Positions 17,232-39,777 of a stretch of DNA of 64,000 bases are shown here, one piece after another. This DNA comes from Rhizobium sp. Leaf262. Its GTDB lineage: Bacteria; Pseudomonadota; Alphaproteobacteria; Rhizobiales; Rhizobiaceae. The first letter of the stretch is position 1; each line of letters opens with the position of its first letter. The stretch covers positions 249,422 to 313,421 of the forward strand of contig NZ_LMMM01000001.1 of the NCBI RefSeq assembly GCF_001422245.1, in the 5' to 3' direction. The notes beneath the pieces were generated by a model that saw nothing but the letters and a program-made list of their open reading frames with translations, ran no database searches and was not told the DNA's origin. Made by a program: the position numbers and the translations under genes.

Positions 17232-17322
17232 CCTGCGGGCTCCCCTCTATGATTCAATCGAACATCAAGACATCCGATCTTTGCGTAAAGGTCAAAAAGG
17301 ACGAAAACTGGAGGAAAGACAC

Positions 17323-23731: not shown

Positions 23732-23736
23732 GAATG

Positions 23737-24060
23737 TCAGATCTTGGCTTCAAGCGTATCCGTTTTGCCCATTGGTGAAGACGGCAACCATTGCAGTGGC
23801 TGCAACTCTTCGCGAAAGGCAAAGCGCAGAAGGTGGCTTTCGATAACGTGCTGGGTTTCCTTCAACTGGCTTTCGTCAAAAGCCGTGCAGCGAATAGTCA
23901 ACACATCGGTATCCGCATCCATGATGGCGGTGCCGCACGTAAAGCGGCATTCGCCATGACCTTCAGAATGGGACGTATCGACCTTGTGGGCGAAATGCTT
24001 GCAAAGCTGCGCTATGTATTTCGCGGCCTGTTCGGTGCGCAGTGTTGCCGTGGTTTCCAT
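23737..24060 (-). CDS. DUF2218 small protein of siderophore loci
   Basis: A 107-residue soluble protein matching the DUF2218 pattern: AAKYIAQLCKHFAHKV, a Cys/His-bearing strand GHGECRFTCGTAIM, LTIRCTAFDES and HVIESHLLRFAFREEL. Such proteins recur beside siderophore uptake genes, but I know of no established function. It has a good AGGAG site, lies between the receptor and the binding-protein gene, and is probably co-transcribed. Helping to release iron or handle the siderophore in the cytoplasm is a guess from context. Confidence 0.85.
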   Translation of the reverse strand: METTATLRTEQAAKYIAQLCKHFAHKVDTSHSEGHGECRFTCGTAIMDADTDVLTIRCTAFDESQLKETQHVIESHLLRFAFREELQPLQWLPSSPMGKTDTLEAKI

Positions 24061-24122
24061 GGTGACTTTCTCCTGTTGTGCGCCACCGGCAAGTATGCCG
24101 ACGACGCCTGGAATTCATCGGC

Positions 24123-26426
24123 TCAGAACGTTGCCTTGGCTGTGATCAGCAGGCTACGGCCCGGTTCGAAAAGGGGTGTCACATTGCCGAATTCCTGTCC
24201 ATATGTGGCTCGGTCGGAATAGCTCTCGTCAAAGAGGTTCTTCACCTCGGCGCGGAACGTGAAATTCTGCAACTGCTCTGGCTTCCATTCTGTGAAGACA
24301 TTGACGACTTCATAGGCTTTGTATGGGGCGTTGCCCGCAGCCACGTGGTCGTACTCCGGCGCGATCTCGATATCGCCGCCGACCGTCAGGTTCCATTGAT
24401 CGAATGTATGTGCAGCGGTGATGGTGATGATGTCACCCACGGGAGAAGCCAGGTAATTTCCACTGTCAGAGTCGGCTGGCGAACCGTTTACGTCCACGTC
24501 GATATGGGCGTATTTGACCTTGATGTAAGAGCTTGTCCATTCGTAACCGGCACCGACTTCAAAGCCCTTTGAAAGCAGGTTTTTATGCGCTAGGGCGCCT
24601 GTCGCGATGGGTCTATATGTTGGGATGCGGGCATTGTCGATGTCGGTGCGGAACAGGCTCACGTTGGCAGTGAAGCCATTATACTCGGCGTCCAGGCCAA
24701 TCATGTAGTTATCAGCTTTGACCGGCTCCGGGCCTTCACTGCCATAACTCCAATTCGGATTCATGATGAAGTTTTCCGCCAGTGGAACTCCAGCCCAGAC
24801 ATGAGAAAAGCCGGCTTTGGCGGTGAAAATATCCGTCAGGTCATATTCGCCTGATATATTGGCACTGATACCGTTATTGCTGAATTCGGCATTGTTGGTT
24901 CCCGTGAACCATTGTTGATCGGCTCTTGCGCCGAAGGATAGGCGTGTCCGCTCCCAAGGTTCGAGACGGGCCTGTGCGTAAATACCCAGATTATGTGCTC
25001 TTTCACGACTGCCGTCACTCGGGTCGCTCAACGTTGCCCGGTCGTTGTAAAAATCAAAACCAGCGACAACATTGCCGATATCGAAAGAGAACTTGTTTTC
25101 AAACTTGCCGTTTAAAGTCGAGGTCTTCCCGCTGTTATCATATTGATAAACACCAGAGGAAAAGTAAGGTACGGTCACTTTCGTGGATCCGTAAGCGACC
25201 ACAAACGTTGGGTCCCACCATCCCTCGGGTGTTTCATCTGTGTAGGTGAACACTAGGTTTTGCCGGTCCAGTCGGTAGTTTCGGGTCGCCGGATCAGGGA
25301 TACGGGGTGGGGGTGGGATAACGACGCTTGCATTCGCACGGTATGGGCGAATTGCATCATCCAAGACACGGTCGTAGCTGATTTCGAAACGGTCGCCGCT
25401 GTCGAATTCATAACCGACTTTACCTAACCCGCTCAGGAGATTGGTTCCGGTCCCGTCAACAACGTCGCCATTGCCGCCATGGAAATCGTCACCCTTGCCG
25501 TAGGTGAAATATCCGAGATAATCCAACCCATCTTTCTCGCCATAGGCCGACAGGCCGGTCACCACCGTCTCACTGTTGAAGTTATAGGTAGAGGAGACGA
25601 AGCCGCCAAAGGTTTTGCCGTCGGTCAGCAAGTCTTTCGCGTCTTTGGTTTCGTAGTTGATCGCGCCCGCAAGGGCTCCGGGACCGGCGTCGGCGGGCGC
25701 AATACCCGAATCCACATCCACGGCCTTGAGGATCGACGGATCGATCAGATTGGTGGCGTTGTGGTGGAACACCTTGTTGTTCTGACGTGCACCATCGATG
25801 CTGACGGCGAGGTTGGTTTCTTCGACGCCGTGAACATAGACTTTTTGCGACATGGGCAAAGAGCTGCCGACCTGAACACCGGCCTCTTCGCGGAACACAT
25901 CTGCAATGCTGCTGGGGTTGATCCTCTCCAGTTCCTTTAGTCCGATGACAGTCTCGCCGACGTCACCCTGACCGACGGATTGTCCTTGCACGACAATCGG
26001 CTCGAGAACGGTGCCATCGCCATTGCTGACAACGGGTGCGGATGCTGACCGACCGATGACTGCCGTGCCGTTGGAGATACTGTAGGGAATCCCAGTGCCT
26101 TCCAGCAGCTGCCCAAGAGCGGCCTGCGACGACAGCGTGCCGGAAACCGCGCGGGAGGTGATGCCCTGCGATGTGGACGCGGCAAGCGAGACTTGTAAAC
26201 CGGACTGTCGCCCGAAGGCATTCAATGCAGATGCCAATGGCTGTGCCGGAATGTTGAAGCTGCGTTGGGCGGTCTGCGCCATAGCTGCCGGTGTCTGTAC
26301 CAGTGCTGTGACACTCACCGCTGCCGAAGCCATCAGTCTGAGGGCCACAACGGTCCCTCGGTTCGATCTTTTCGACCGTTCCACATTTACCAGAAGCGTC
26401 ATTCCGCCCCGTCTCCCCATACGCAT
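24123..26426 (-). CDS. TonB-dependent siderophore receptor with N-terminal signalling (STN) domain
   Basis: Outer-membrane receptor of about 767 residues. A signal peptide (core LMASAAVSVTALVQTPAAMA) is followed by an STN domain at about residues 60-115 (RSFNIPAQPLASALNAFGRQSGLQV, ending GTAVIGR). Next come the plug (ELERINPSSIADVF, VYVHGVEETNLAVSIDGARQ) and the 22-strand barrel ending in F (LLITAKATF) after NLFDESY. The STN domain transmits ligand binding to FecR. Start choice is uncertain: I use ATG 26426 behind AGGGGG, with ATG 26402 and 26450 possible. The expected ligand is ferric petrobactin, by neighbourhood. This is a transducing receptor like FecA. Confidence 0.9.
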   Translation of the reverse strand: MRMGRRGGMTLLVNVERSKRSNRGTVVALRLMASAAVSVTALVQTPAAMAQTAQRSFNIPAQPLASALNAFGRQSGLQVSLAASTSQGITSRAVSGTLSSQAALGQLLEGTGIPYSISNGTAVIGRSASAPVVSNGDGTVLEPIVVQGQSVGQGDVGETVIGLKELERINPSSIADVFREEAGVQVGSSLPMSQKVYVHGVEETNLAVSIDGARQNNKVFHHNATNLIDPSILKAVDVDSGIAPADAGPGALAGAINYETKDAKDLLTDGKTFGGFVSSTYNFNSETVVTGLSAYGEKDGLDYLGYFTYGKGDDFHGGNGDVVDGTGTNLLSGLGKVGYEFDSGDRFEISYDRVLDDAIRPYRANASVVIPPPPRIPDPATRNYRLDRQNLVFTYTDETPEGWWDPTFVVAYGSTKVTVPYFSSGVYQYDNSGKTSTLNGKFENKFSFDIGNVVAGFDFYNDRATLSDPSDGSRERAHNLGIYAQARLEPWERTRLSFGARADQQWFTGTNNAEFSNNGISANISGEYDLTDIFTAKAGFSHVWAGVPLAENFIMNPNWSYGSEGPEPVKADNYMIGLDAEYNGFTANVSLFRTDIDNARIPTYRPIATGALAHKNLLSKGFEVGAGYEWTSSYIKVKYAHIDVDVNGSPADSDSGNYLASPVGDIITITAAHTFDQWNLTVGGDIEIAPEYDHVAAGNAPYKAYEVVNVFTEWKPEQLQNFTFRAEVKNLFDESYSDRATYGQEFGNVTPLFEPGRSLLITAKATF

Positions 26427-26520
26427 ACATTGCAAGCCCCCTGCCTGCATTCAGCTTAGAGACGACCGTGGCGTCGGTTTTTTTCACTGCACCCAGAAAA
26501 AATCGTGAAACTTTTAAATA

Positions 26521-27501
26521 TTAGAAGAATGAAAGAACGCGAAGATAGGGCGATACTCGGTGAATCTTTGCGCCATAGGGGCTAACGAGCGCTTCCAAAG
26601 CCCGATCAGGATCGGACAAATCATAAAGCCCTGTCACACGACGCTCTCCCAGTTCGTCGCTTGCCACAGTGATCCATGATGGGTGATAGCGCTGCAGTTC
26701 CGCGACGACCGTCTTGATCGCAACATCCTGCACGAAAAGCTTCCCATCACGCCAGGCGGCGATGGAATCGATATCTGTTTGGCCGCGAGAGAGCTGCCCG
26801 TTGCTGCGATCGAGGGTAACGACATCACCGGGACGAAGCTGCATCTCCTTTCCCGATTGACTGGCAAGGAGATCGACGGTCCCTTGAGCCAGTTGAATGC
26901 TGGCGTCTTGAGGCGTGATATTGACGTCAAAAGCCGTGCCGACCACCGTGATCTTCAACTCGCCGCCCGCGTCGACGATGAAAGGTCGATTTGTGTTCGG
27001 TCGCACATCGAAAAAGGCTTCGCCGGAAAGCAGGCGAACCTGTCGTGCGGTGCCGGAAAAATTGACGGCAATGGCGCTTTCTGCGCCCATGTCCACCGTG
27101 GAACCATCCTCCAGTGTGATGCGGCGAAGTTCAGCAGTTGTCGTCATATAATCAGCTTGATAGCGGATCGCGGCAGTTGGGCCAACCACTACCGCGACGA
27201 GACAGGCAGCAAGCGCGGCGATGCCAAGACCGACAGCATGCCGCCGACCAATGCGCCTCGGTTTGGCGGAACGGTGCGTTGGCGACGATTGCCAGGCTGG
27301 AATATTGACAGGTTGCGTTTCGCCCATGATTTCCCAGGCGCGACAAGCTTTTGCCCAAGCCCGTTCGTGTTGCGGCGAACGGCTAATCCATGCGGCGAAA
27401 GAGAGATCGTCTATGTCGGAGCGTGCAGGATCGCGCAGGCGCAGGAACCAGTCCATCGCTTCTTCGAGCAGTTCTTCATCTGTGTGGTCGTGCCGCGTCA
27501 C
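26521..27501 (-). CDS. fecR: FecR-family anti-sigma/sigma-regulator membrane protein
   Basis: A 326-residue bitopic inner-membrane protein. The cytoplasmic N-terminus (DUF4880-like: EEAMDWFLRLRD and FAAWISRSPQHERAWA) is followed by a single membrane segment at about residues 88-108. The periplasmic FecR domain includes LRRITLEDGSTVDM, RQVRLLSGEAFFDV, PFIVDAGGELKITVVGTAFDV and LRPGDVV. It couples the receptor's STN domain to the sigma factor. It sits between the sigma and receptor genes in the canonical fecI-fecR-fecA order. Confidence 0.95.
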   Translation of the reverse strand: MTRHDHTDEELLEEAMDWFLRLRDPARSDIDDLSFAAWISRSPQHERAWAKACRAWEIMGETQPVNIPAWQSSPTHRSAKPRRIGRRHAVGLGIAALAACLVAVVVGPTAAIRYQADYMTTTAELRRITLEDGSTVDMGAESAIAVNFSGTARQVRLLSGEAFFDVRPNTNRPFIVDAGGELKITVVGTAFDVNITPQDASIQLAQGTVDLLASQSGKEMQLRPGDVVTLDRSNGQLSRGQTDIDSIAAWRDGKLFVQDVAIKTVVAELQRYHPSWITVASDELGERRVTGLYDLSDPDRALEALVSPYGAKIHRVSPYLRVLSFF

Positions 27502-27599
27502 TTCATACCTGCTTGGGGTCTCGACAAGCTCTTATCCGAGTTTGCTTATCGAGAGTAGTACGATTGAAGCGGGAAGATTTTTCTTGATGATCGCGAAGA

Positions 27600-28139
27600 T
27601 CAGGCATTTTTTCTATCGAGCGCGATGGCAATCTTCACCATGGCCGTTTTGACGTGCCGGTGAGCTGTCGCAACGGAGATACCGAGATGCTCTGCTACAG
27701 CTTCCAGCGTGCAGCCGCCATGCCGATGCATTTCGACGGCGATCTGGATATCCTTGGGCAGGGACGCGAGCACTTGCTGTGCAATACGAACTTCGTCGCA
27801 AAACAGCGTTGTCTGCTCGGGCGTTTCGGCAGCACGCGGCACGATCCAGAACGGCGGATCGTCATTTTGAGCCCGTTGCTCGATTTTGCGACGCTTGACG
27901 ATGTCGAGCGAGAGATTACGGACGATGCGGTAGAGATAAGCCAATGCCTCGCGCGCCGTTTGTGCTGGCGAATTGCTGATGCCGAAACGAAGATAGGCTT
28001 CCTGAACGATGTCTTCAGCGACATCCCGTGAGCCCAGAATCCTTGCCGAATAGCTGATCAACGCCTTGCGATGCCCCATGAATAGGGCATCCGCGTCGAG
28101 GCTGACATCCAAGTGCTGCTTCGCTTGTCGTTCCTGCAC
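27600..28139 (-). CDS. fecI: ECF sigma factor, FecI type
   Basis: A 179-residue extracytoplasmic-function sigma factor. Region 2 is at residues 20-90 (HRKALISYSARILGSRDVAEDIVQEAYLRF and YLYRIVRNLSLDIVKRRK). Region 4 is at 125-175 (LASLPKDIQIAVEMHRHGGCTLEAVAEHLGIS). The start codon is GTG 28139, with GGAAG upstream. It probably activates the receptor, transport and perhaps asb genes when ferric siderophore occupies the receptor. It lies 98 bases after asbF, with a possible iron-responsive box between. Confidence 0.94.
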   Translation of the reverse strand: MQERQAKQHLDVSLDADALFMGHRKALISYSARILGSRDVAEDIVQEAYLRFGISNSPAQTAREALAYLYRIVRNLSLDIVKRRKIEQRAQNDDPPFWIVPRAAETPEQTTLFCDEVRIAQQVLASLPKDIQIAVEMHRHGGCTLEAVAEHLGISVATAHRHVKTAMVKIAIALDRKNA

Positions 28140-28225
28140 GCTGTCTTCCGATAGGCGGTCGATTGACGGAATAGTCGCTCACGCCCATGGAGGCGCTTAG
28201 GCGCAACTCCCTAACAGCAAAAACA

Positions 28226-28240
28226 TGATCAATAAAGTCA
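28226..28240. promoter_or_regulatory. TGA-N9-TCA sequence upstream of fecI (candidate RirA iron-responsive box)
   Basis: TGACTTTATTGATCA on the minus strand matches the TGA-N9-TCA core of rhizobial iron-responsive operators. It lies about 90 bases before the sigma-factor start. Its first TGA is the asbF stop codon, so part of the match is forced; only a candidate. Confidence 0.35.
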
Positions 28241-29119
28241 TATTTGAATGTTTATGGGCAAGGCGTGTGGAGAAGCCGTGTTTTGCCTGATTTCGTGCGC
28301 GCTTTCAAAACCGAATTCCTGGCGAAGCGTTTGGCAATCCCGACTTAGGACGGCCATTGGGTCGTTGCCGAACCATTCCAGCGACACATCAGCCGCCATG
28401 ATGTCTGGGATCCGCACGATCACCGCAGCATAATCGACAGCACCCTCGAAAAGGGGTGTCATGCCTTTGCGATCACCTGCTGCCGAATAGACATTGCCGG
28501 GGCTGAAAACGTGAAAGTGACGGCGGTCTGTGATATTCTTCAAATGGTAGTGCTGGACGAATTCACCTATCGATCTGTGCAGTGCCACCGGGTCGTCTCC
28601 GGCTTCCCAGACGTGCAGAACATCGAAATTGATCGCCAGTGCCGGATGGTTCACTTCTTCGATGAGCCGGATCGTGGACGCTGCCGTATCGGCCAGCGTG
28701 TTTGGATGGGTCTCCACCAGAAGATGGATGCCATAGCTTTCTACGATGGCTGCGACTTGGCGCAGGCGGGCAACGAGGTGCTGGCGATCGGTGGCGGTCG
28801 TATCGACGCTTGCCTTACCGCCGGCAAAGGTCCTGATCTTGCTGGCTTTCCAGCGGCGTGCCAGCAGGCAGAGCTCCACCGTCTTGCGGCGCAGGCTTTC
28901 TTCATCGCCTTCAAGCGGCAGGTAATCGCTGATCATCGGAACGGTCAGGCCGTAATCGCTCAGCCAGTCGGCATGCTTGTCTTTGTGTGTGCTCAGACTG
29001 CGTGCGTGCGCGCCCCAGAGTTCAATGCCATCGAAGCCGCTGGTGCGGGCAAAGCTTGCGATTTCTCCAAGCGAAATCAACTGGTGCCGGAAGCTGATGG
29101 TGCACAGAGAAATGGTCAC
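28238..29119 (-). CDS. asbF: 3-dehydroshikimate dehydratase of petrobactin synthesis
   Basis: A 293-residue TIM-barrel enzyme converting 3-dehydroshikimate to 3,4-dihydroxybenzoate, the catechol unit of petrobactin. It matches AsbF closely by eye: SLCTISFRHQLIS at the start, GIELWGAHA, MISDYL, KIRTFAG, NVYSAAGDRKGM and SLEWFGN. The metal ligands of the known AsbF site align to Glu136 (LVETHPN), Asp166 (NFDVLH), His192 (QHYHLKN) and Glu248 (LEWF). I choose GTG 29119, which gives a 4-base GTGA overlap with the upstream gene and has GGAGG nearby. It is the last gene of the biosynthetic operon. Confidence 0.95.
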   Translation of the reverse strand: MTISLCTISFRHQLISLGEIASFARTSGFDGIELWGAHARSLSTHKDKHADWLSDYGLTVPMISDYLPLEGDEESLRRKTVELCLLARRWKASKIRTFAGGKASVDTTATDRQHLVARLRQVAAIVESYGIHLLVETHPNTLADTAASTIRLIEEVNHPALAINFDVLHVWEAGDDPVALHRSIGEFVQHYHLKNITDRRHFHVFSPGNVYSAAGDRKGMTPLFEGAVDYAAVIVRIPDIMAADVSLEWFGNDPMAVLSRDCQTLRQEFGFESAHEIRQNTASPHALPINIQI

Positions 29120-30426
29120 CCGGCCAGCCTCCGCAGATTGATCTCCGTTGATGCACAATATTCGTCGCACCATTGCGCGAAAACAGTCGCGAGCTTGGTC
29201 TTTAGCTTCGTTTCGAGACGATCCGCTTCATCCAGTTGCGCAAAGACCGCCGCCGCCTGCGCCGGATCGCTTGTCTGCGAAAGCTTCATGCACGCATAGT
29301 GCAGGGTCTTCAGCGACTGAACCAGTGCTTCGATCTCCTCGCACCAGAGCTCGAATTCCGCTGCGGGCAGTTTCAGTGCACGCCAGAAAAAGGCAAAGCC
29401 GTGCTCATAGGCATATTTGCGGATGGTCAGCACGGGTAACTCGCGCACGGCGGGTTCCAGGTCCCGGAGGGACAGGCCTTGGCTGCCATCCAGATGAGCC
29501 GCAACGATGGTCCGCAGTGCATCAACGATCGGATTATGATCGAACACGAAGCAGCTTTGGAAAAAAGCCTTGAGGTCTTCGGCGTGGGGCGTTCGCGCCT
29601 GCGCAATGTCAAAGGCGTAACCGCCGCCGACTGTCGGCTGCATGATGGCGTGAATGACCTTCTCGCGTGCCATCACGCCTTCCCAGCGATAATCGGGATC
29701 ATGCACGAACCATGTTTCGGGATCGCCCGTCTCCTGCAGCATCAGGTAATGCGGAAAAGGGTTCTGGTTGAACTTGTTCTCGCGCTCCGGCATGTGGAAC
29801 ATGTCCAGCATGACCATGACGCAATCCGTCTCTCCGCGTTTGCGCACCAGATCGGTCATAACAGCCAGGTTGTCCGCCTTGCTCAGTGCCGGGTCGTACC
29901 ATTCGTGGACCTTCACGCCATAGAGACGCTCGAACCATGCGCGGTAAAACTCCTGGCTGATGTCATTGGCATGATAGCGCAGTTGGTAACGGTCGCTGAC
30001 GGCAAATTTCGCATCCCAGATGCCGCAATAGAATGGCCGCTGGTCTAGCCCGCGCTTCTTCAGTCCATCGCAGACGCAACTGACGAAGCAATGAACTTTG
30101 ATGTCGTAATAGGCCTCGCCATGCACACCTTCATCCGTATCCCCGCCGGTCATCGGAAAACTGGGAATTGGCAGCGTCGGTGCTTTTGGCAGATAGAGGC
30201 CGATCAGATCATCGACGGTCCGAACATGACTATTGGCGATGGCCTCCTCGGGCATGGCGAGGTTGAATTCGAGCTCAAGGTTTAGAAAAATCTGAAGGAT
30301 GAGGACGGAGTCGAGATACAGATCCTCGTTCAACCGTGCATCCGGCGCAAACCCGGCCATATGTGGATGGTCCATATGGGTGGTGAGAAGGGTTTCGATG
30401 GCGGAAAAAATCTCGTCACGGGTCAT
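29116..30426 (-). CDS. asbDE: Fused aryl carrier protein (AsbD) and condensing protein (AsbE)
   Basis: A 436-residue fusion. Residues 1-80 are an aryl carrier protein with the phosphopantetheine serine at Ser40 in YLDSVLILQ. A short Pro/Gly-rich linker follows (about 80-104). Residues 105-436 match AsbE: VHCFVSCVCDGL, RPFYCGIWDAKFAVSD, VHEWYDPALSK, MLDMFHMPERENKFNQ, PFPHYLML and FVHDPDYRWEGVM. In Bacillus these are separate proteins of roughly 90 and 330 residues. AsbC loads dihydroxybenzoate on the carrier; AsbE transfers it to a spermidine amine. ATG 30426 overlaps the asbC stop by four bases. The gene is much like asbD joined to asbE without a stop. Confidence 0.9.
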   Translation of the reverse strand: MTRDEIFSAIETLLTTHMDHPHMAGFAPDARLNEDLYLDSVLILQIFLNLELEFNLAMPEEAIANSHVRTVDDLIGLYLPKAPTLPIPSFPMTGGDTDEGVHGEAYYDIKVHCFVSCVCDGLKKRGLDQRPFYCGIWDAKFAVSDRYQLRYHANDISQEFYRAWFERLYGVKVHEWYDPALSKADNLAVMTDLVRKRGETDCVMVMLDMFHMPERENKFNQNPFPHYLMLQETGDPETWFVHDPDYRWEGVMAREKVIHAIMQPTVGGGYAFDIAQARTPHAEDLKAFFQSCFVFDHNPIVDALRTIVAAHLDGSQGLSLRDLEPAVRELPVLTIRKYAYEHGFAFFWRALKLPAAEFELWCEEIEALVQSLKTLHYACMKLSQTSDPAQAAAVFAQLDEADRLETKLKTKLATVFAQWCDEYCASTEINLRRLAG

Positions 30427-31697
30427 GAAGCCACTCCGGTTGGAACTGGGAGAAAGGCGCCCGCGGCGTGGCGTTCTGCAACATCGCGACGGCTGATCTT
30501 GCCGTTGGCCTGGCGGGGAATGTCGCTGACCTGGATCATTTCGGACGGCAACTGGTGGGTGGCCAATTGCCTGCTCAGCCATTCCCGCAGCGCGCCTGAT
30601 GACACCGGGTTTTCAGCGCTGAAGAGAAGCGCTACCCGCTCACCCGCAAATCGGTCGCCCTTGCGAAACGCAACGGCATCGGTAATGCCGGGCATCGCGG
30701 TGACGGCATCTTCGACATCCTTTGGATAGACGTTGAGACCAGCGACATTGATCATGTCGTCCATGCGCGACACGAAGACCAGCATGCCATCGGCCCTGAT
30801 ATATCCAAGGTCGCGGGTGTGGATCGGCTGGCCATCGGCTTTGCGGATCACGATATCCGCCGCCGTCTCAAGATCGCTGCCAGTGTCCGCAGTCACGTGG
30901 GGCAGAATGTAGCCCATATCATGCGCGGCGGTGAGGTCGGGGTTGATGGCGACACAGCCTGCTTCCGAGCAACCATATTGTTGGAAGAGATTGTCGCATT
31001 TCTCGCGAATGCGCGTGAACCATGGTTCTGGCAGCAGCGTGCCCGAGGTCATGGCGGCGTGCATCTTTTCGCCAGCGGGCAGAAGTTGTGCCAGCATGTG
31101 CAGAATGGCGGGCGAGGAATAGAGCAGGGGCCGTTCGGTCTCGCGCATGACTTTCAGAATATATTTCGGATTTTTGGTATCCACGACGACAGGCGTGACG
31201 CTGCGGTGCAGCCCCACCAGAATGCCGCAGATCAGTCCGTAGGAATGCGTTGTCGGGCAGGCTACGATGGGGGTCATCTCGGCGGGCGCTGCGAACGTCT
31301 GCACATAGCTGGCGATCTCGGTCTCGATATTCTGCCATGTGCGGGCAATCAGCTTTGGCGCGCCTGTGGTGCCAGAGCTCATTTGCAGCAATTCACCATC
31401 GCCACCGGTCGCGGTGCTGTCCGGCAAGGCTTCACCTGTAAAACTGTTATAGAACAGTCGCTCGCAACCGGCCTGCACGGCCAGCTTCCGCGCCGCCGCA
31501 TAGGGCGTGCCGGGGTGGATCGGCAGAACACTGGCACCGGCTTCCCGAATTGCGAAGAAAAGCGCCAGCCATTCGACAGAATCTGCAAAGCAAACCGCAT
31601 AACGCACGGAGCGCGAAAGACCTGTCAACGCGGTAAGCTCTGTCGACCGCCTCTCGAAATAGCCCTTGTCATAAAGGGTGTCGCCGATCCTGATCAT
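30423..31697 (-). CDS. asbC: 3,4-dihydroxybenzoate AMP ligase
   Basis: A 424-residue adenylate-forming enzyme, shorter than typical aryl-AMP ligases and close to AsbC. P-loop MSSGTTGAPK lies at residues 106-115. Further motifs are YGCSEAGC, the hinge and ribose region TRDLGYIRADG, and a C-terminal PRQANGKISRRD with the catalytic lysine. It activates 3,4-dihydroxybenzoate and loads it on the carrier domain encoded just downstream. It overlaps asbB and asbDE by 4 bases each. Confidence 0.92.
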   Translation of the reverse strand: MIRIGDTLYDKGYFERRSTELTALTGLSRSVRYAVCFADSVEWLALFFAIREAGASVLPIHPGTPYAAARKLAVQAGCERLFYNSFTGEALPDSTATGGDGELLQMSSGTTGAPKLIARTWQNIETEIASYVQTFAAPAEMTPIVACPTTHSYGLICGILVGLHRSVTPVVVDTKNPKYILKVMRETERPLLYSSPAILHMLAQLLPAGEKMHAAMTSGTLLPEPWFTRIREKCDNLFQQYGCSEAGCVAINPDLTAAHDMGYILPHVTADTGSDLETAADIVIRKADGQPIHTRDLGYIRADGMLVFVSRMDDMINVAGLNVYPKDVEDAVTAMPGITDAVAFRKGDRFAGERVALLFSAENPVSSGALREWLSRQLATHQLPSEMIQVSDIPRQANGKISRRDVAERHAAGAFLPVPTGVAS

Positions 31698-33418
31698 CGC
31701 ATTGTTCTCCGTTCGGCCGTGGCCTTCGTAAAGAAGTTCGGCACGTCGTGATGGTATTCCGGCTCGCGGGCGAGCAGTTTTCGGGTGAGAAGAGATTCCG
31801 TCTGGATGGTCGCCGCATTATAACCGAGCGCTGCCATCCGCTGGCTGGCCCCGTTGCTTGCTGCATAGGTTTCGAGCAGCGCCTCGACCCGCTGCCAGAA
31901 GCTGGCTTCGGGCAGTTGATAGACATGGTCGAGGAGATGTGCGACCTCCGCGAGATTGTAGACGAACAGGGTGTCAGCCACGAGTTCACGCAGGGAATCG
32001 AGATTGTCCATCCAATAATACTGGTTTGGCGGTGCGTCTCGATAACGCGCATCGAGCGACGGGAAATCTGGTGCTTTAGCAGGATGGCGCAGAAAGAACG
32101 GGCAGAACTCGACGCTTTCGTGAAAATCGCGAAGCACAAGGCGTACCGGCCAGCCATCACGATGCACAAGCAGCATGTTCTGCCCGTGCGCCTCCACGGC
32201 GAGACCGTGATGGACGAGAAGATGCCAGACGGGCAGGATGGAGATTTCCAGCAGGCGGTTCAGCCAGGGCATCAGGCCGAACCGTTCGATCCATGGATGG
32301 ACGAACGGTTTCTCATCCGCTTCCAGCATCATCAGAGCGTTGAAGGGAATGACCTCTTCTCCGGGCAGTAAATCTTTCAGCGCGGTTTCGCGCCAGATGG
32401 CACCGATCTGGCCGGACAGATCGCCATCATGCTCGGCCAGAACCGCAGCATATTCCTGAAGGATCGTCAGCGGGTAACGGTCACGAAATGCCGCGTCCTC
32501 ACCCACCATCCCGGCAATCCATCGCGACAATATCGGGGCGGTGCAGACGGAGTGCGGATCGAGAGTACGCCGCGACGAGGTGTTGACGACATCAAGCGGC
32601 AGCTTGATGCTTGCGGCCAAGGGACGATCGAGATTGTGCAAACTGCGCAGCGATTGGCTGGCGAGATAACGGTCTCCAAAGTGCCCAAGCCCATGCAGTT
32701 TGCCGCGAGCGATGAGGTCGGAACCCGCACCGTCCCTCAAACGCTGCCATTGCCATGGATGCATCGGCACCAGCGCGAAATCGTTCCAATCGAGACTTTT
32801 CGCCTGACGCGCGTCATCGATCTTGTTCCAGACGTCCTCACCGAGTTCACTCTTCCAAAAACTTGTTTCGTCGCGATCAAGCGCCTGCCTTATGGTGTCA
32901 CGCGCGTGCAATGCCCAAAAAAGCTGGAACGGTTTTGCCGATTCCGGGCCGAAACGCAGGTTGTCTTCGATCGTAAAACCGTATCGTGCCTTGAAACATG
33001 GATGATAGGGGTGGCCCTCGTGCAATGCGCCGTCCAACTCCGCGAATGCCATGTCACGCCGGTCGCGAGGCGGAATATTGTCTTCGTTCCACTGGCAAAG
33101 CGTGACGGTGTGCTCGAGTTCCCGAAGGAGCTTGTCGCGGGTGATGCCGTTACCGGGCAGACCCGTGACAATTGCCAAAAGAGACGCTGGCACCCAGTTG
33201 CCATCAGATTTCATCTCGATGGAATGCGGGTGAATACGCGGACGGCCAAAGGTGCCGAGCGTGGCGCGGCAACGGTACTGGTGGCCACCAGAGGTCCAGG
33301 TCAAACGATCCAGCGGCTCGATCCGAAAAGGCACAAGACCTTCAAACAGCGTTGCCGCCACCAGTTGGCGCAAGACACGATCCTGCGGCGCAGACGAAAT
33401 TTCAAGAGGCAATGGCAT
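31694..33418 (-). CDS. asbB: NIS siderophore synthetase (IucA/IucC family), AsbB-like
   Basis: A 574-residue NRPS-independent siderophore synthetase. These enzymes adenylate a carboxylate and condense it with an amine. The N-terminal half has HEGHPYHPCFKARYGF and LVPMHPWQWQRL, and the C-terminal FhuF-like half has VEAHGQNMLLVHRDGWPVRLVLRDF. Family length and motifs are intact. In petrobactin synthesis AsbB completes the second citrate-spermidine amide or transfer step. Its start ATG 33418 lies inside asbA (17-base overlap) behind GGAGAGG. Assignment as B rather than A rests on gene order. Confidence 0.92.
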   Translation of the reverse strand: MPLPLEISSAPQDRVLRQLVAATLFEGLVPFRIEPLDRLTWTSGGHQYRCRATLGTFGRPRIHPHSIEMKSDGNWVPASLLAIVTGLPGNGITRDKLLRELEHTVTLCQWNEDNIPPRDRRDMAFAELDGALHEGHPYHPCFKARYGFTIEDNLRFGPESAKPFQLFWALHARDTIRQALDRDETSFWKSELGEDVWNKIDDARQAKSLDWNDFALVPMHPWQWQRLRDGAGSDLIARGKLHGLGHFGDRYLASQSLRSLHNLDRPLAASIKLPLDVVNTSSRRTLDPHSVCTAPILSRWIAGMVGEDAAFRDRYPLTILQEYAAVLAEHDGDLSGQIGAIWRETALKDLLPGEEVIPFNALMMLEADEKPFVHPWIERFGLMPWLNRLLEISILPVWHLLVHHGLAVEAHGQNMLLVHRDGWPVRLVLRDFHESVEFCPFFLRHPAKAPDFPSLDARYRDAPPNQYYWMDNLDSLRELVADTLFVYNLAEVAHLLDHVYQLPEASFWQRVEALLETYAASNGASQRMAALGYNAATIQTESLLTRKLLAREPEYHHDVPNFFTKATAERRTMR

Positions 33419-35183
33419 GTGGCCTCTCCGTTTCGGTCTCGGTGATCGTGGTCAGCCTCAACGGATTGGGCATTTTGCGGTAAAGCGCGTGGTCGCCCAC
33501 CGAACTCAATTCGTCCACATCGGCCAGCCGCGTCGCAAGGTTAGCTTTGGTGCCGATATCAGCCTCATCCAGAATATGCCGGATGAAATCGCGGCCAAGT
33601 CCACGCATGGAAAGCGCAAGCTTTTCCAGATGATCACGCAGAATTCGTAAGACCGTGATTTCGTCGGCAAGCCCATCATGCGCCATGCGGCTGATGACGG
33701 AAAACACCTGATTGACGATCAGATAATAGGCGAAGCGGTCGCGAATGTCTGCTTCCGGGAAATAGAGGGAGCTTATGGTTTCCGTCTCGGGCACGGCGTT
33801 CGCTATCGCTGGCCTGTGTCGTTCCGAGAGGTAGAAACCCTGATTGTCACGGTAGTATCCGAGCCGTGGATAACCGGTACCGATATCAACGAGGCTGTTC
33901 TGCTGATGCGCTTCGAGCGCGATGCCGTGCCGCTCGTAAAGCTCGATCAATGGCACCACCGCACAATCGAGATACCGGCGAAACCAGAGCGCGGCGGTTG
34001 CTGCAATATTACCGCTTTCGCGCGCATGAACCTGTCTGATGAGCCGTTCCAGCCGGGACGGACGCCCCGGAACGGGTTCCGCCGTTAGCGCCGCCAATGT
34101 CACAACGCCTATACCAGCCTCTGCCCGGAAAGGGTTTTCTCGGAGAATCGTCTCGAATCCGCTTTCTTTGCGGCCTAGAATATCCAGCGTTATAAAGGCG
34201 GGATCCCGGATGATGCGGAACGATGGCATTTGACGTGCAAGCTCGAACCGGTCGATCAGCTTTGCCATGGCAACGCCAGCATCCAGTTCGTCACGCCCGT
34301 TGGTTCGCACAGAATTGGTGATGCGAACGGGCAGTGAAAATTTCAGCATCCAGTCGGCATCATCGCTCCAGACCGTGCGCACCGAAGATGTTGCAGTGAA
34401 GTCTGGACCCGCAGGGCCAAGGCTTCGAAGGGTGCCCTCTGCCATCATCGCGCTAATGTCTGGATCGAGCAGCAATGCCTGCGCCTGCAAGGGGTGCATC
34501 GGCAGAAGTGTCTCATTGTCGCGAATGCCGAAGTCTCTGATACCGGAACCGGCAAGTTGGGTGACGATATGGTCCGCAGGTTGATTGGTGGCCGAGGCAT
34601 GCGTTACGAAGTCCGTTCTCGCGGCAAAATAATGCAATTGGAAACGACCGTGGAACTCCGGCGCATAGGTTTTCTGCTGCCAAAATGTTATGCCTTGCCG
34701 GCTTTTCGGCGTCGGGTGCAGCCAGTGCCCGAATACGAGTGATTGTTCGGCAGCGATGAAGTCGTCACCCTCGTACGGTGTGGCGAGTGCATGCTCGATA
34801 TTGGTGCTGATCTGCTGGTGGCTGTCCATCACGCGCAGCAGAAGTTCCGTCTCGCAGCCCGGCTGCGTGGTGCCTTCGGGTTTGCCGTGATAGGCTTCCC
34901 GCATCAGCGCCTGCAACGCGGGCATGGGGGACCACACATGCCACGCCGTGTCTGACACGGCACGCTGCCATATGCGGCCAAAACGATATGGGCCACAAAG
35001 CGAGGCCGACATCACTTCGACCCTGATGGCCATTCTGTTGGCACGCAACATCCATTCGAGGCAGTCGATTTCTCTTGCGAACATCTTATGGCGAACAGCT
35101 GCGCCAGCATCGATCTCGCGTCTATAGCAATTGGCAAAACTTTGAAACGTGGCCGTCTCGGCTGCATTCCACGCGACGGACAT
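33402..35183 (-). CDS. asbA: NIS siderophore synthetase (IucA/IucC family), AsbA-like
   Basis: A 593-residue IucA/IucC synthetase, first gene of the biosynthetic operon. It has the catalytic motifs FGHWLHPTPKSRQG and LLPMHPLQAQALLL and the C-terminal EAHQQNSLVDIG block. In petrobactin synthesis AsbA links citrate to spermidine. The start is taken at ATG 35183 (MSVAWNAAETA); ATG 35195 is an alternative. Overlaps of 17, 4, 4 and 4 bases join asbA-B-C-DE-F, so the whole pathway is translationally coupled. Confidence 0.92.
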   Translation of the reverse strand: MSVAWNAAETATFQSFANCYRREIDAGAAVRHKMFAREIDCLEWMLRANRMAIRVEVMSASLCGPYRFGRIWQRAVSDTAWHVWSPMPALQALMREAYHGKPEGTTQPGCETELLLRVMDSHQQISTNIEHALATPYEGDDFIAAEQSLVFGHWLHPTPKSRQGITFWQQKTYAPEFHGRFQLHYFAARTDFVTHASATNQPADHIVTQLAGSGIRDFGIRDNETLLPMHPLQAQALLLDPDISAMMAEGTLRSLGPAGPDFTATSSVRTVWSDDADWMLKFSLPVRITNSVRTNGRDELDAGVAMAKLIDRFELARQMPSFRIIRDPAFITLDILGRKESGFETILRENPFRAEAGIGVVTLAALTAEPVPGRPSRLERLIRQVHARESGNIAATAALWFRRYLDCAVVPLIELYERHGIALEAHQQNSLVDIGTGYPRLGYYRDNQGFYLSERHRPAIANAVPETETISSLYFPEADIRDRFAYYLIVNQVFSVISRMAHDGLADEITVLRILRDHLEKLALSMRGLGRDFIRHILDEADIGTKANLATRLADVDELSSVGDHALYRKMPNPLRLTTITETETERPHAIAS

Positions 35184-35195
35184 TATGCGTCGCAC

Positions 35196-35442
35196 CCTGT
35201 GGCGGACCGTGAAACACTGTCACTGAATTTCGCAAACAAGAGCACATGTATCTGTGTTTCTAAGAAACGTTCTGCCGTCATCATGCGGTTCCTCGTCGAA
35301 CTTCTGGATGTGCCACGAAGGAGAGACGAACGAACCGTCAGATTTTTTCATGCGAGAAAAGTTTTTCTGGGTTGTTTGCGAATTGTCGGCGCTCACTGCA
35401 TACCTACTGGTGCAATGGAGATTTGGCAGGTCGGAGATCAGG
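35196..35442. promoter_or_regulatory. Promoter region of the asb operon with a GTTTCT-A-AGAAAC palindrome
   Basis: No gene is convincing here. A perfect 13-base palindrome GTTTCTAAGAAAC lies at 35256-35268, about 75 bases upstream of asbA. Its TTCTAAG part resembles one half of the rhizobial Irr box (TTTAGAA-Nx-TTCTAAA) but is not a full match. An iron-dependent or sigma-dependent operator is plausible. The rest is unremarkable. Confidence 0.4.
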
Positions 35443-35661: not shown

Positions 35662-36630
35662 TCATCCTCTCGGGTCGTATTCTCCAAGCGACCCTGCATA
35701 TTTCGCGAGACTTTCTTCCGGCAGAAAGCGCTTCTCGATATCAAGCACGGCCGGGAAGCCGGTGAGGTCAAGATAAGAGAAGGTGCCCAGCTTCGATGAT
35801 TTCTGGGTCTCCATGAAATCGTTGAAAGCGTCAGCGTTTCGTTCGTGGCAATCGCGCAGAAAAGCTTCCATCATCAACTGGGAAACCTTTGAGATGGAGA
35901 TATTGTAAACGGCCGCACCGCTTGCCTCATATTCCGCCGCAGAAAGCGCCGGTTTGACCGAGCTTGCATTGATATAGATATCAGCCTCCGGGAAGGCTTC
36001 CAGCACGCGCTGCATTTCTTCGCGGCTCTGAAGCGCCATAACCATCAGCATATCGACGCCGCATGACAGATAGGCCTCGCAGCGACGCAGAACCTCATCG
36101 ACGCTGCCGCCCACCGCGGCTCTCGAATCCGTTCTAGCAATGACGACGACATCCGGGTCCAGCTCGTCGCGCTTGGCGCAAGCGGCGCGGTATTTGGCGC
36201 TCGCCTCGGCGATCGAAACCACCTCGACACCCTTGGTGAAGCCGCAGCGCTTGGGAAAGGTCTGATCCTCGAGGAAAAAACCAGCAACGCCGGCAGTGAT
36301 AAACTCGTGCACGGCGCGTGTGGTGTTCACCGCGTTGCCAAAACCCGTTTCGCAATCGGCAATGACGGGAATGGTAATGGACTGGCAGATGCGGCGGATA
36401 TTATCGACAGCTTCAGTCAGAGTCATCAGGCCAGCATCCGGCATGCCCATAATGTGAGCTGCGGCTTGTGAGCCGGACTGAAAGAACAGCCGAAATCCTG
36501 CGGCCTCGGTCAACTGAGCGTGGTGCGGTGTTGCGCCGGAAATGCCGACCAGCGGTTTGCGGTCTTCCCGCAACTGACGCCGGAGCTCTGCGCTCATGCG
36601 GCCGGATATGACGGTGGGGCGAAGATGCAT
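35662..36630 (-). CDS. Isocitrate lyase/PEP-mutase family lyase (divergent from tct operon)
   Basis: A 322-residue TIM-barrel enzyme that cleaves or makes C-C bonds in 2-hydroxy-di/tricarboxylates (methylisocitrate, dimethylmalate and related). Evidence includes IPVIADCETGFGNAVNTTRAVHEF, the catalytic loop EDQTFPKRCGF, and VIARTDSRA. The family active-site motif K-K/R-C-G-H has Phe in place of His. ATG 36630 follows GGGAGG. It is transcribed away from tctB across a shared operator-like inverted repeat. It likely works on the acid imported by the tct system. Confidence 0.86.
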   Translation of the reverse strand: MHLRPTVISGRMSAELRRQLREDRKPLVGISGATPHHAQLTEAAGFRLFFQSGSQAAAHIMGMPDAGLMTLTEAVDNIRRICQSITIPVIADCETGFGNAVNTTRAVHEFITAGVAGFFLEDQTFPKRCGFTKGVEVVSIAEASAKYRAACAKRDELDPDVVVIARTDSRAAVGGSVDEVLRRCEAYLSCGVDMLMVMALQSREEMQRVLEAFPEADIYINASSVKPALSAAEYEASGAAVYNISISKVSQLMMEAFLRDCHERNADAFNDFMETQKSSKLGTFSYLDLTGFPAVLDIEKRFLPEESLAKYAGSLGEYDPRG

Positions 36631-36680
36631 GTGAAAACCTCCCTTGGATATTGCGATATGCTTCCATAGCACGTCATTTA

Positions 36681-36773
36681 TGTCAACATTTTAAGGGAAT
36701 AATCGCGCTAATAGCCGATATTATCAATTTTTATCCAAATTATGTTGACAGATTTTCAGTTTTTGGATTTATT
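36681..36773. promoter_or_regulatory. Divergent promoter with a 9-bp inverted repeat (candidate GntR operator) for lyase and tct operon
   Basis: TGTCAACAT at 36681-36689 and its exact inverse ATGTTGACA at 36742-36750 are 61 bases apart (start to start). The second overlaps a -35-like TTGACA (36745-36750) that is 17 bases from TTTATT (36768-36773), about 35 bases before tctB. On the other strand the first copy also gives TTGACA facing the lyase gene. A repressor binding both would shut both directions. The GntR regulator at 41898 is the obvious candidate. Confidence 0.55.
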
Positions 36774-36807
36774 AGGGCGACATTAATATGACGGCATGGG
36801 AGGAGCT

Positions 36808-37287
36808 ATGACTGTCAGGAACTGGCCACTGGCCACATTCGGCATCACCATATTTGCAATCGGCATTGCGGTGTTTTTCAACGCGCGCGGCATTCAGGGC
36901 GGCTTCGGCTATGACGCAGTCGGCCCGGCCGTTTTTCCGATGATTATCGGTGGCGGCTTCATGGTCGCCGCGGTGATGATCTGTCTCGAAAGTCTCGGCG
37001 TCGATGCCGATGCAAGCGACGGCGATGAAAAAACAAATGTCTGGCCGGTCATCGTCATTTCGGCCGCGGTACTGATCGAAGCTCTGCTGATCAAAAAAGC
37101 CGGTTGGGTGCCGATGGCGACGGTCGTCTTCGTGGCGGGTGCCTGGGCATTCGGCGACCGAAGACTGCTTTTGAACACGGTGTTCGGTCTCGTGCTTTCA
37201 GGCTTCATTCTCTTCGCATTCAACTGGGGGCTCGGCCTCGATCTTCCGCTCGGCCTTCTCGCGCCGATCCTTCCTGCCAACCAGTAG
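36808..37287 (+). CDS. tctB: Tripartite tricarboxylate transporter, small membrane subunit (TctB)
   Basis: A 159-residue protein with four hydrophobic segments and the TctB features [20 protein letters not shown] and the late LPLGLL. It forms the inner-membrane translocator with TctA. ATG 36808 follows GGAGG. The first gene of a unit with tctA, an isocitrate-lyase-like enzyme, tctC and an AbrB-type protein, which indicates coordinated uptake and breakdown of a carboxylic acid. Confidence 0.9.
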
Positions 37288-37298
37288 GTCCGGCTCAA

Positions 37299-38813
37299 AT
37301 GGATACTTTCTTCGATCTCATGAACGGCTTTGCCGTTGCCCTCACCCCTGCCAATATCGGCTGGTCACTGCTTGGCGTGACATTGGGAACCGCCATCGGC
37401 GTGCTGCCCGGTATCGGCCCGGCCACAACGGTGGCACTCCTGATGCCGCTGACCCTCGGCCTTGATCCGATCTCTGCCTTCATCATGTTCGCGGGCATCT
37501 ATTATGGTGCTCAGTACGGCGGCTCCACAGCATCCATTTTGCTCAACACCCCCGGTGAAGCCGGAGCGATGATGACGGCGCTCGATGGTAACGCCATGGC
37601 CCGCAAGGGTCGCGGTGCGCAAGCGCTGGCAACGGCGGCCATCGGCTCGTTCGTTGCCGGAACGATTGCCACCATCGGCCTGACATTCGCAGCACCACTT
37701 CTCGTCAACGTCGCCTTGCTTTTGACCGCGCCTGATTACTTCGCGTTGATGATTCTGTCGCTGGCGACGGTGACGACCGTGATCGGGCGGTCCATCGGCA
37801 AGGGTATCGCTGCCCTCTGCTTCGGTCTGTTCCTTGGCTGCATAGGCCTTGACCCGCAAACCGGGCAGGAACGTTTCACCTTTGGCATTATCGAGCTTCT
37901 CGATGGCATCGATACGGTGGTTGTGGCTGTCGGCCTGTTTGCTGTCGGCGAAACGCTGTTCGTTGCGGCCCGTGAAGGCGGCGTCGCCGACAAGATTCAT
38001 GCCCTCAAAGGCTCGATCTGGATGAGCCGTGAGGACTGGTCGCGGTCCTGGAAACCTTGGCTGCGTGGCACAATCATCGGCTTTCCCATCGGCGCCATTC
38101 CGGCAGGCGGAAGCGAATTGCCGACAATCCTGTCCTACACACTGGAAAAGAAGCTGTCCCGTAAACCCGAAGAATTCGGCAAGGGTGCGATCGAAGGTGT
38201 CGCGGGGCCGGAAGCTGCCAACAATGCCTCAGCGGCAGGTGCGTTGTCTCCTTTGCTGGCGCTTGGTTTGCCGACTTCTACAACGGCTGCGGTTCTGCTT
38301 GCCGCCTTCCAGCAATATGGTTTGCGTCCAGGCCCCATGCTGTTCGAAAGCAACAGCGATCTGGTCTGGGGTCTGATTGCCAGCCTCTATATTGGCAACG
38401 TGCTGCTGCTCATTCTCAACCTGCCCATGGTCGGCATCTGGGTGAAACTGCTGTCGATCCCCAAGCCATGGCTTTATGGTGGCATTCTGGTGCTGGCATC
38501 GCTTGGCACCTACAGCATCAACGGCAATGCAATCGATATCTTCCTGCTCTGGATCATCGGCATCATCGGCTTCTTCTGCCGGGTTCTGGATGTGCCCATC
38601 GTGCCCTGCATTCTCGGTCTCATTCTTGGGCCTATGATCGAACAGCAGATGCGCCGCTCACTGGCCATCAGCCAGGGTGACTGGACTGTATTCCTGACCC
38701 ACCCGGCATCGGCAGTCATGCTGGCGCTGGCGGCCTCCATCATCTTTGTCCCGGCCCTGATGCGTCTTCGCCGGTCCAACGACCCGGCTCCCGACGCTAC
38801 CAAAGCGCCCTGA
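37299..38813 (+). CDS. tctA: Tripartite tricarboxylate transporter, large permease subunit (TctA)
   Basis: A 504-residue inner-membrane permease with about 12 helices, the usual TctA length. It has the repeat motifs [19 protein letters not shown] and [19 protein letters not shown], together with [20 protein letters not shown] and [20 protein letters not shown]. It imports the ligand delivered by the binding protein using the ion gradient. It follows tctB after 11 bases. Confidence 0.94.
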
Positions 38814-38829
38814 ACGAACGGAAATCATA

Positions 38830-39777
38830 ATGTCGCTGAGAGCCGAATATCGAAAACTCATCCGTGAACGCGCAGGACACGTCATGCCCGGCGTCTACGA
38901 TGCCCTATCTGCCAGAATCGCAGAACGCGCAGGCTTCAAGCTGATCGGCGGCGGTGGCTTTGCCGCCATCGGCACCATGCTGGGTGGGGCTGATATGGGG
39001 CAGTCCAACATGCGCGACTATGCGGACCATTACGGACGCATCTGTGCGGCGGTGAACGTGCCGGTTTCCGTGGATGCCGACACCGGGTTTGGAGATGTGC
39101 ACAACGTCACGCAGATGGTGCGAAGCTTCGAGACGGCAGGCGTCTCCGGCATCATGATCGGCGACCAGAGCTTTCCCAACCGCTGCGGATATCTGCCGGG
39201 AAAGGATGTCATATCTGTCGAGGAAATGATCGCGAAAATAAGAGCTGCCGTCGCCGCCCGGCGCGATCCCGATCTCGTCATCATTGCACGCACGGACAGC
39301 CGCTCGGATTTCGGACTCGATGAAGCGATCCTGCGTTGCAAGCTCTACCTTGAAGCAGGTGCAGACCTCGCCAAGCCGCAAGGTGTCGACAGGCCGGAGG
39401 AAATTGCCCGCTGTATGGAGGAAATCCCTTGCGAGTTCGCCGCAACGCTCTCTCAGGCGGCGCGGCAACGTTTTACCGATATTGCCGAGTTGAAGGCTCA
39501 GGGCGTGGCGACCATCAGCATGCCGTCGATCTCGCTGTTTGCAGCCGCCCACGCGGTCGATGCGACTCTACGATCGCTCGCAACGGCTGGCTCGCTGTCT
39601 TCGGTCGAAGGCGAGCTGATGCAACTCGACGATTATAATGAACTCGTTGATCTCAACGGCATGATCGCCAATGAAATCACGTTTCGGGAGGAGGCCACAC
39701 GCCTCGTTCAGCGCCACAGCGCACATTCTCAGCCAAAAACTTCAGAAACCATCGATATGGGAGGAAACGTTCGATGA
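38830..39777 (+). CDS. Isocitrate lyase/PEP-mutase family lyase (within tct operon)
   Basis: A 315-residue TIM-barrel lyase. VPVSVDADTGFGDVHNVTQMVRSFE, the catalytic loop GDQSFPNRCGYLPGKDV and VIIARTDSRSDFG place it in the methylisocitrate/dimethylmalate-lyase group. Compared with the usual K-K/R-C-G-H, this enzyme has N-R-C-G-Y, so both the lysine and histidine are changed. That makes genuine isocitrate lyase activity unlikely; a carboxymutase, oxaloacetate-type hydrolase or other lyase is possible. It is followed, with a 4-base overlap, by tctC. Confidence 0.85.
   Translation: MSLRAEYRKLIRERAGHVMPGVYDALSARIAERAGFKLIGGGGFAAIGTMLGGADMGQSNMRDYADHYGRICAAVNVPVSVDADTGFGDVHNVTQMVRSFETAGVSGIMIGDQSFPNRCGYLPGKDVISVEEMIAKIRAAVAARRDPDLVIIARTDSRSDFGLDEAILRCKLYLEAGADLAKPQGVDRPEEIARCMEEIPCEFAATLSQAARQRFTDIAELKAQGVATISMPSISLFAAAHAVDATLRSLATAGSLSSVEGELMQLDDYNELVDLNGMIANEITFREEATRLVQRHSAHSQPKTSETIDMGGNVR

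Follow-up and report, generated by a model that had tools for sequence, protein, structure and literature searches.

A probable thirteen-gene petrobactin-family siderophore locus with linked receptor, importer, and sigma/anti-sigma genes in Rhizobium sp. Leaf262

The asb genes and the extent of the locus

The window described here is a 64,000-nt stretch of Rhizobium sp. Leaf262, the genome of which is labeled G000, and the system in question is a set of asb genes—those of petrobactin biosynthesis—on its minus strand, in the order asbA, asbB, asbC, fused asbDE, and asbF over positions 28238–35183. The original prediction placed five overlapping asb genes in petrobactin order in this interval of a rhizobial-type genome; all five lie there with matching domains, and the type of host is supported as well.

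33402–35183, minus strand: asbA, type-A-like synthetase of the nonribosomal peptide synthetase-independent siderophore (NIS; IucA/IucC) family; comparison with relatives favors the ATG at 35183 over the GTG at 35195
31694–33418, minus strand: asbB, NIS synthetase; petrobactin AsbB (3to3) is nearest among solved chains
30423–31697, minus strand: asbC, aryl-AMP ligase-like protein (AMP-binding)
29116–30426, minus strand: asbDE, fusion of an aryl carrier domain with AsbE (DUF6005), 436 aa
28238–29173, minus strand: asbF, 3-dehydroshikimate dehydratase with conserved metal-site positions and a GTG at 29119 that overlaps the stop of asbDE

AsbB finds petrobactin AsbB (3to3) as its best match among solved chains (E 2.6e-101), and residues 21–283 of AsbF match the solved AsbF 3dx5 (E 5e-75), in agreement with the predicted dehydratase carrying all four metal ligands. 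In this alignment, with 3dx5 residue numbers assigned by eye, Glu154, Asp184, His210, and Glu266 fall on Glu142, Asp172, His198, and Glu253 of 3dx5, which we take to be the metal ligands—an assignment that reportedly goes back to Pfleger 2008. Further aligned positions are His156/His144, His187/His175, and Lys212/Lys200. AsbC scores above the cut-off of the NCBIfam model PRK08308 (538 bits, cut-off 513), and the AsbE part of AsbDE is DUF6005 (487 bits). The best NCBIfam match of the AsbDE carrier domain is petrobactin AsbD, and its Asp39-Ser40 pair is invariant across 14 aligned AsbDE proteins. The asbDE frame is open over 29116–30582, with a likely start at 30426; asbDE and asbF share a GTGA overlap, so that a start of asbF at 29119 is possible. 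For the protein in the AsbA position, the best solved chain is IucA (E 6.5e-43), and AcsD is matched as well; the match list contains no AsbA, and its identity is assigned by its domain and by this IucA/AcsD similarity.

A PF04183 search of the genome returned two NIS synthetases, both within the asb locus. The components of the petrobactin pathway are present: two NIS synthetases, the AsbC ligase with AsbD carrier and AsbE, and an AsbF with intact metal site. As the same A-B-C-DE order recurs in other genomes, the set goes beyond a chance arrangement. The biosynthetic operon had been predicted to be complete, and in terms of a petrobactin-type biosynthesis set it is; the system itself is larger, consisting of 13 genes at about 20157–35195. 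The five asb genes are joined by fecI, fecR, a TonB-dependent receptor, a DUF2218 protein, and a four-gene ATP-binding cassette (ABC) importer.

27600–28139, minus strand: fecI, sigma factor of extracytoplasmic function type
26521–27501, minus strand: fecR, anti-sigma factor/signal transducer
24123–26450, minus strand: TonB-dependent receptor, sharing 60% identity with the FprA-position receptor of Sinorhizobium fredii USDA 205
23737–24060, minus strand: DUF2218 protein, the mllG counterpart; found at the c14010 position (receptor–asbA interval) in S. fredii USDA 205
22838–23731, minus strand: siderophore-binding protein (Peripla_BP_2) at the FatB position
21864–22841, minus strand: FecCD-family permease
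20930–21913, minus strand: second Fe-siderophore ABC permease, with weaker matches
20157–20936, minus strand: Fe-siderophore ABC transporter ATPase, its start selected within a longer frame

The N-terminal stretch of the receptor is FecA-like, with an STN score of 27.5 bits (Pfam cut-off 28.4).

The edges of the locus are drawn from comparison with two genomes of the same genus, G036 and G038. G036 shares a single unbroken conserved block of about 15 kb (window 20182–35368), whereas G038 shares two blocks, 20171–28275 and 29118–35364, the gap between which corresponds to asbF. In both genomes, the conservation ends at nearly identical edges, and the flanks of the window are common to neither. 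The GC content of the locus (56.7%) compares with 58.3% and 58.1% in the flanks.

Outside these edges, a drug/metabolite transporter-family gene at 17281–18183 on the plus strand, the nearest other transporter checked for export, falls beyond the block conserved with G036 and G038. On the other side, 35662–40742 holds a phosphoenolpyruvate mutase/isocitrate-lyase-like gene and a putative tripartite tricarboxylate transporter set, the latter named only by inspection of its frames. This right flank is present at 87–89% in G030, G019, and G038 without an adjoining asb locus. A clean empty site is not supported, as the other side in G030, G038, and G019 shares nothing with the left side of the window.

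Promoter motifs and proposed control

Three candidate control elements accompany the locus.

35324–35350, minus strand: FecI-type promoter motif TGAAAAA-N14-TCGTCT, perfect, upstream of asbA
26460–26486, minus strand: second copy of this motif, perfect, upstream of the receptor gene
28226–28240, minus strand: RirA-type box TGA-N9-TCA ahead of fecI, retained in the two same-genus relatives

The comparisons below draw on 114 fetched loci, duplicates included (e.g., L040 and L075), with 95 distinct AsbDE sequences counting that of the window; a scan of named-species genomes found 298 loci, of which the 80 most similar to the window were kept. The FecI-type motif was derived from the aligned asbA upstream regions of the clade of the window, so that receptor upstream regions are an independent test of it. 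In 53 of 86 loci (duplicates included), they carry the motif with at most one mismatch, against 0 of 86 shuffled upstream regions at up to two mismatches. The perfect motif stands in 16 of 113 asbA upstream regions (duplicates included). A scan of the window at up to two mismatches returns two matches, both perfect, at asbA and the receptor. Among 70 loci with distinct AsbDE, the asbA copy is found in 11/18 asb-first, 0/38 receptor-first, and 0/14 opposite-strand loci, the receptor copy in 16/18, 26/38, and 0/14, respectively.

The RirA-type box precedes fecI in 20 of 48 loci, compared with a shuffled rate of 0.04. The copy in the window is identical in G038, and in G036 changes are confined to N9. 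The pattern TGA-N9-TCA is common by itself, with 21 copies in the window; one of these, a palindrome at 27588–27602 on the fecI/fecR boundary, may be there by chance.

TGA-N9-TCA is cited as the RirA motif in PMC8822346, where control by FecI and RirA is established by experiment for S. fredii. Taken together with this precedent, the FecI-type motifs at asbA and the receptor and the RirA-type box at fecI lead us to infer a hierarchy, and the arrangement suggests a RirA-FecI-asb/receptor circuit in the window, with separate promoters for biosynthesis and receptor. In such a circuit, uptake of the ferric complex would run through the FprA-like receptor and the ABC importer of the locus; the occupied receptor would signal to FecR and onward to FecI, upon which the promoters before asbA and the receptor would fire. 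With ample iron, RirA would silence fecI.

Several results weigh against this reading of the locus and its control. In 37 of 100 shuffles, at least two motif matches occur at up to two mismatches, so the motif is no rarer in the window than in shuffled sequence; hence, its support is limited to perfect score, position, and conservation. The asbA copy is missing in 7 of 18 asb-first loci and the receptor copy in 28 of the 70 loci, the upstream regions of fecI are not enriched for the FecI-type motif over shuffled ones, and the RirA-type box is missing from 28 of 48. Within the gene set, AsbDE reaches 62 bits against an NCBIfam AsbD cut-off of 100. No exporter gene was recognized among the genes of the locus, for which no systematic search was made. 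Finally, G038, the nearest relative, has asbF cleanly missing between asbDE and fecI (L039, 10521–10671) yet keeps the other 12 genes, which puts the necessity of asbF here in question. With these points included, we assign a probability of roughly 0.87 to the window carrying a complete petrobactin-family siderophore locus that includes a receptor, an importer, and sigma/anti-sigma genes of its own.

Chelating groups and polyamine of the product

The steps of biosynthesis can be proposed after the known asb pathway. AsbF, perhaps with assistance from a QuiC-type enzyme encoded elsewhere in the genome, would convert 3-dehydroshikimate to 3,4-dihydroxybenzoate (3,4-DHB), which AsbC would adenylate and load onto the AsbDE carrier domain. 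The AsbE domain would transfer it to a triamine, and AsbA and AsbB would join two such arms with citrate. Given AsbF, AsbC, and the NIS pair, the product probably belongs to the petrobactin family, with 3,4-DHB and citrate as chelating groups. The original prediction of a 3,4-catecholate–citrate siderophore thus holds for these groups; the polyamine, and with it the exact product, is not fixed by the genes. The triamine would be spermidine, as in petrobactin proper, and/or homospermidine.

The genome provides for both. It encodes a homospermidine synthase (PDB HSS match, E 3e-231), by which homospermidine would be supplied, and a carboxy(nor)spermidine synthase–decarboxylase pair (CASDH and CASDC), with the decarboxylase above cut-off and the synthase at 456 of 800 bits. 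With CASDH and CASDC encoded, spermidine should be available here, and the spermidine supply that the petrobactin pathway needs appears to be covered. For comparison, decarboxylases were searched in 20 asb-bearing genomes, hand-chosen across the tree rather than random. CASDC was found in seven of them, three above cut-off and four just under (387–397 of 409 bits). S-adenosylmethionine decarboxylase, searched as the bacterial-type PF02675 only, was found in none of the 20, with control matches in 8 of 14 known genomes. This leaves 13 of the 20 with neither decarboxylase seen; hence, some rhizobial "petrobactins" may be homospermidine congeners.

Homospermidine might, then, be the whole or main polyamine of the product in the window too, making it a nonacetylated relative of rhodopetrobactin and not petrobactin proper—a serious possibility, to which we give somewhat less than even odds. 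It is in line with the homospermidine synthase of this genome, with the 13 chosen hosts in which neither decarboxylase was seen, with S. fredii USDA 205, where homospermidine synthase is present and neither decarboxylase was seen, and with the homospermidine found in the rhodopetrobactin of a relative (PMC7857480); homospermidine is present in methylolanthanin as well (PMC11317620). On the other hand, the genome in question does carry CASDH and CASDC, and polyamine uptake or another route could also supply spermidine.

In the S. fredii study, the siderophore was detected by chrome azurol S (CAS) assay (PMC8822346), the main text of which has no mention of "mass spectr", liquid chromatography–mass spectrometry (LC-MS), nuclear magnetic resonance, or polyamine. 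A later ISME paper (PMC12815270) likewise has no mention of "mass spectr", LC-MS, ultra-performance liquid chromatography, or spermidine. Among the open-access titles listed for petrobactin with Agrobacterium, Alphaproteobacteria, Sinorhizobium, or homospermidine, and for Rhizobiaceae with spermidine, none states this polyamine split or the loss of asbF. With CAS detection in S. fredii and 13 of the 20 chosen asb hosts showing neither of the decarboxylases searched for, the structure of rhizobial "petrobactin" looks open.

The asbF gene of G038 is not the only one missing. Within the fetched stretches, tblastn finds no asbF in 29 of the 114 loci; on the tree described below, 27 of 90 rows lack it—including L123, the stretch of which is cut off shortly after asbDE—and at least nine state changes are needed. 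Other asbF-less, otherwise intact loci are found in several lineages (L077, L085, L086, L089, L094, L095, L101, L124, L126, and others). Scans of 12 asbF-less genomes returned no second AsbF, the best match being partial (E 7e-6). A PF14696 frame of QuiC length (633–687 aa) is present in 9 of 10 asbF-less and in 3 of 4 asbF-bearing genomes tested. With frames also in the latter, QuiC is a plausible replacement for AsbF without an association being apparent.

The genome of the window itself encodes a QuiC-type fusion of 3-dehydroshikimate dehydratase and 4-hydroxyphenylpyruvate dioxygenase of 643 aa (G000:C1:685337-685753; L171:874-2802) that might serve as another source of 3,4-DHB. Only the copies of G000 and G038 were checked against the family; they remain below the NCBIfam QuiC cut-off with 636 and 643 of 1200 bits, and along its full length the G000 copy best matches the solved chain 5hmq, which was deposited as 4-hydroxyphenylpyruvate dioxygenase. 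A 26% match of G038 in a 648-aa frame was considered as QuiC and dropped after the frames were listed, the QuiC frame of G038 lying elsewhere.

Both strands can be joined in a tentative picture, which we hold to be conceivable though somewhat less probable than its negation: many rhizobial "petrobactin" loci would not yield petrobactin, and their hosts, devoid of both spermidine decarboxylase routes searched for, would load homospermidine and secrete a nonacetylated, rhodopetrobactin-like congener. The lineage of the window, bearing both polyamine routes, would mark the point of the switch, with a mixture as its potential product, and asbF would have been shed repeatedly, with 3,4-DHB coming from catabolic QuiC or plant phenolics.

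A lanthanophore like methylolanthanin, with 4-hydroxybenzoate arms and serving lanthanide supply, is very unlikely. The mll/mlu locus does share a core of receptor, anti-sigma, sigma, A, BC, DE, F, and DUF2218 with the present one (PMC11317620). However, the mll-type (GNAT) acetyltransferase, by which a rhodopetrobactin locus would also be recognized, has no match in the window; in the fetched set, the acetyltransferase of rhodopetrobactin and methylolanthanin loci is matched in 13 of 114. No pyrroloquinoline quinone-dependent methanol/ethanol dehydrogenase above the TIGR03075 cut-off, and hence no candidate for a lanthanide enzyme of XoxF type, was found in G000, G038, or G036, compared with three in a Methylorubrum genome. 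The FecI- and RirA-type elements point to iron, and the window groups with Rhizobiaceae, not with Methylobacterium.

Ancestry and relation to known systems

The locus is patchily distributed. Counting the genome of the window each time, DUF6005 turns up in 3 of 39 genomes at genus level; among sampled genomes, the counts are 29 of 297 for the family, 3 of 385 for the class, and 5 of 398 for the phylum. A FastTree of concatenated AsbA, B, C, and DE was built from 90 rows, for which translations of A, C, and DE without stops were required; 79 rows also have B. Rows from Rhizobiaceae, Mesorhizobium, Aminobacter, Azospirillum, and Methylobacterium are broadly grouped. The window lies deep inside the Rhizobiaceae asb clade with G038 as its sister (88%), followed by Agrobacterium tumefaciens MEJ076, then Neorhizobium huautlense DS1307 with AFS080716, and then Rhizobium sp. 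NFR07, all of these forks being starred. Deep placements are unsure given long-branch warnings (L072, L125, L105, L071, L067, L121, L059) and odd composition; L104 contains only part of the asb genes. Among the matches listed (the best 120 of 722), the closest AsbDE is 90% identical and labeled Agrobacterium vaccinii.

Loci L065, L066, and L067 (G173, G290, and G059) form a divergent asb subfamily with AsbDE 37–39% identical to that of the window, and no asbF or fecIR match was found in their fetched stretches. L063 (G308), from a 3.8-Mb genome in the family of the window, has an asb locus with acetyltransferase; its placement among Methylobacterium rows may point to transfer across families.

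The original prediction suggested horizontal acquisition, with Bacillus and Marinobacter as the best-known carriers. A recent import from either is highly improbable. The patchiness within the genus and the conserved block in G038 and G036, ending at nearly the same edges with differing flanks, would be in its favor; the tree, in turn, nests the window within Rhizobiaceae, and the GC content is near that of the flanks. As neither Bacillus nor Marinobacter is on this tree, such a donor is no more than disfavored. The data fit an alphaproteobacterial pathway that would often have been lost and moved within Rhizobiaceae, the movement being suggested by patchiness and changing flanks. Another NIS siderophore of vibrioferrin, achromobactin, or staphyloferrin B type mis-called as petrobactin is scarcely credible, and the grouping with other NIS systems that was named as refuting the original prediction did not occur: the nearest NCBIfam NIS models are SbnF, FslA, and SbnC and the AsbA-position protein is comparable only with IucA and AcsD among solved chains, but those models score far under cut-off (at best 288 of 900 bits), and AsbB and AsbF find petrobactin enzymes as best solved matches, with AsbC and AsbDE alongside.

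Within the petrobactin family, the locus of the window has known counterparts. Petrobactin asb loci with fecIR, fprA, and fat are published in rhizobia, asb being reported in S. fredii and 245 alphaproteobacterial genomes, and in S. fredii CCBAU45436, a rirA-asbA double mutant leaves the siderophore nearly undetectable (PMC8822346). The range extension that had been predicted is therefore not one; new here is a member of the asb loci with a variant gene order. The S. fredii locus fprA-c14010-asbABCDEF-fatBDCE with fecIR comprises the same 13 genes at 44–76% identity (USDA 205, L079) and bears the FecI-type motif before the receptor as well, with one mismatch. The order differs: in L079, fecI-fecR-receptor-DUF2218 precede asb, followed by the ABC genes, whereas the locus of the window opens with asb, preceded by a FecI-type motif of its own, and continues with fecI-fecR-receptor-DUF2218-ABC. 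Neither spermidine decarboxylase was seen in the L079 genome, whereas that of the window has CASDC.

The asbABCDEF genes of Bacillus encode the same enzymes, AsbB and AsbF of the window matching the solved chains annotated as petrobactin AsbB and AsbF. In Bacillus, asbD and asbE are separate genes; in the window they are fused, and a TonB-dependent receptor and FecIR are linked, fitting a Gram-negative cell. Related loci produce rhodopetrobactin and methylolanthanin (PMC13251462, PMC11317620). These, in Rhodopseudomonas and Methylorubrum, share the asbDE fusion, DUF2218, receptor, and sigma/anti-sigma genes with the window (PMC11317620) and differ in carrying the acetyltransferase; mll also fuses B and C (PMC11317620), whereas asbB and asbC of the window are separate. 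The locus thus adds an Agrobacterium-type genome to the petrobactin family known from Alphaproteobacteria and allows for proposing a control circuit from its sequence.

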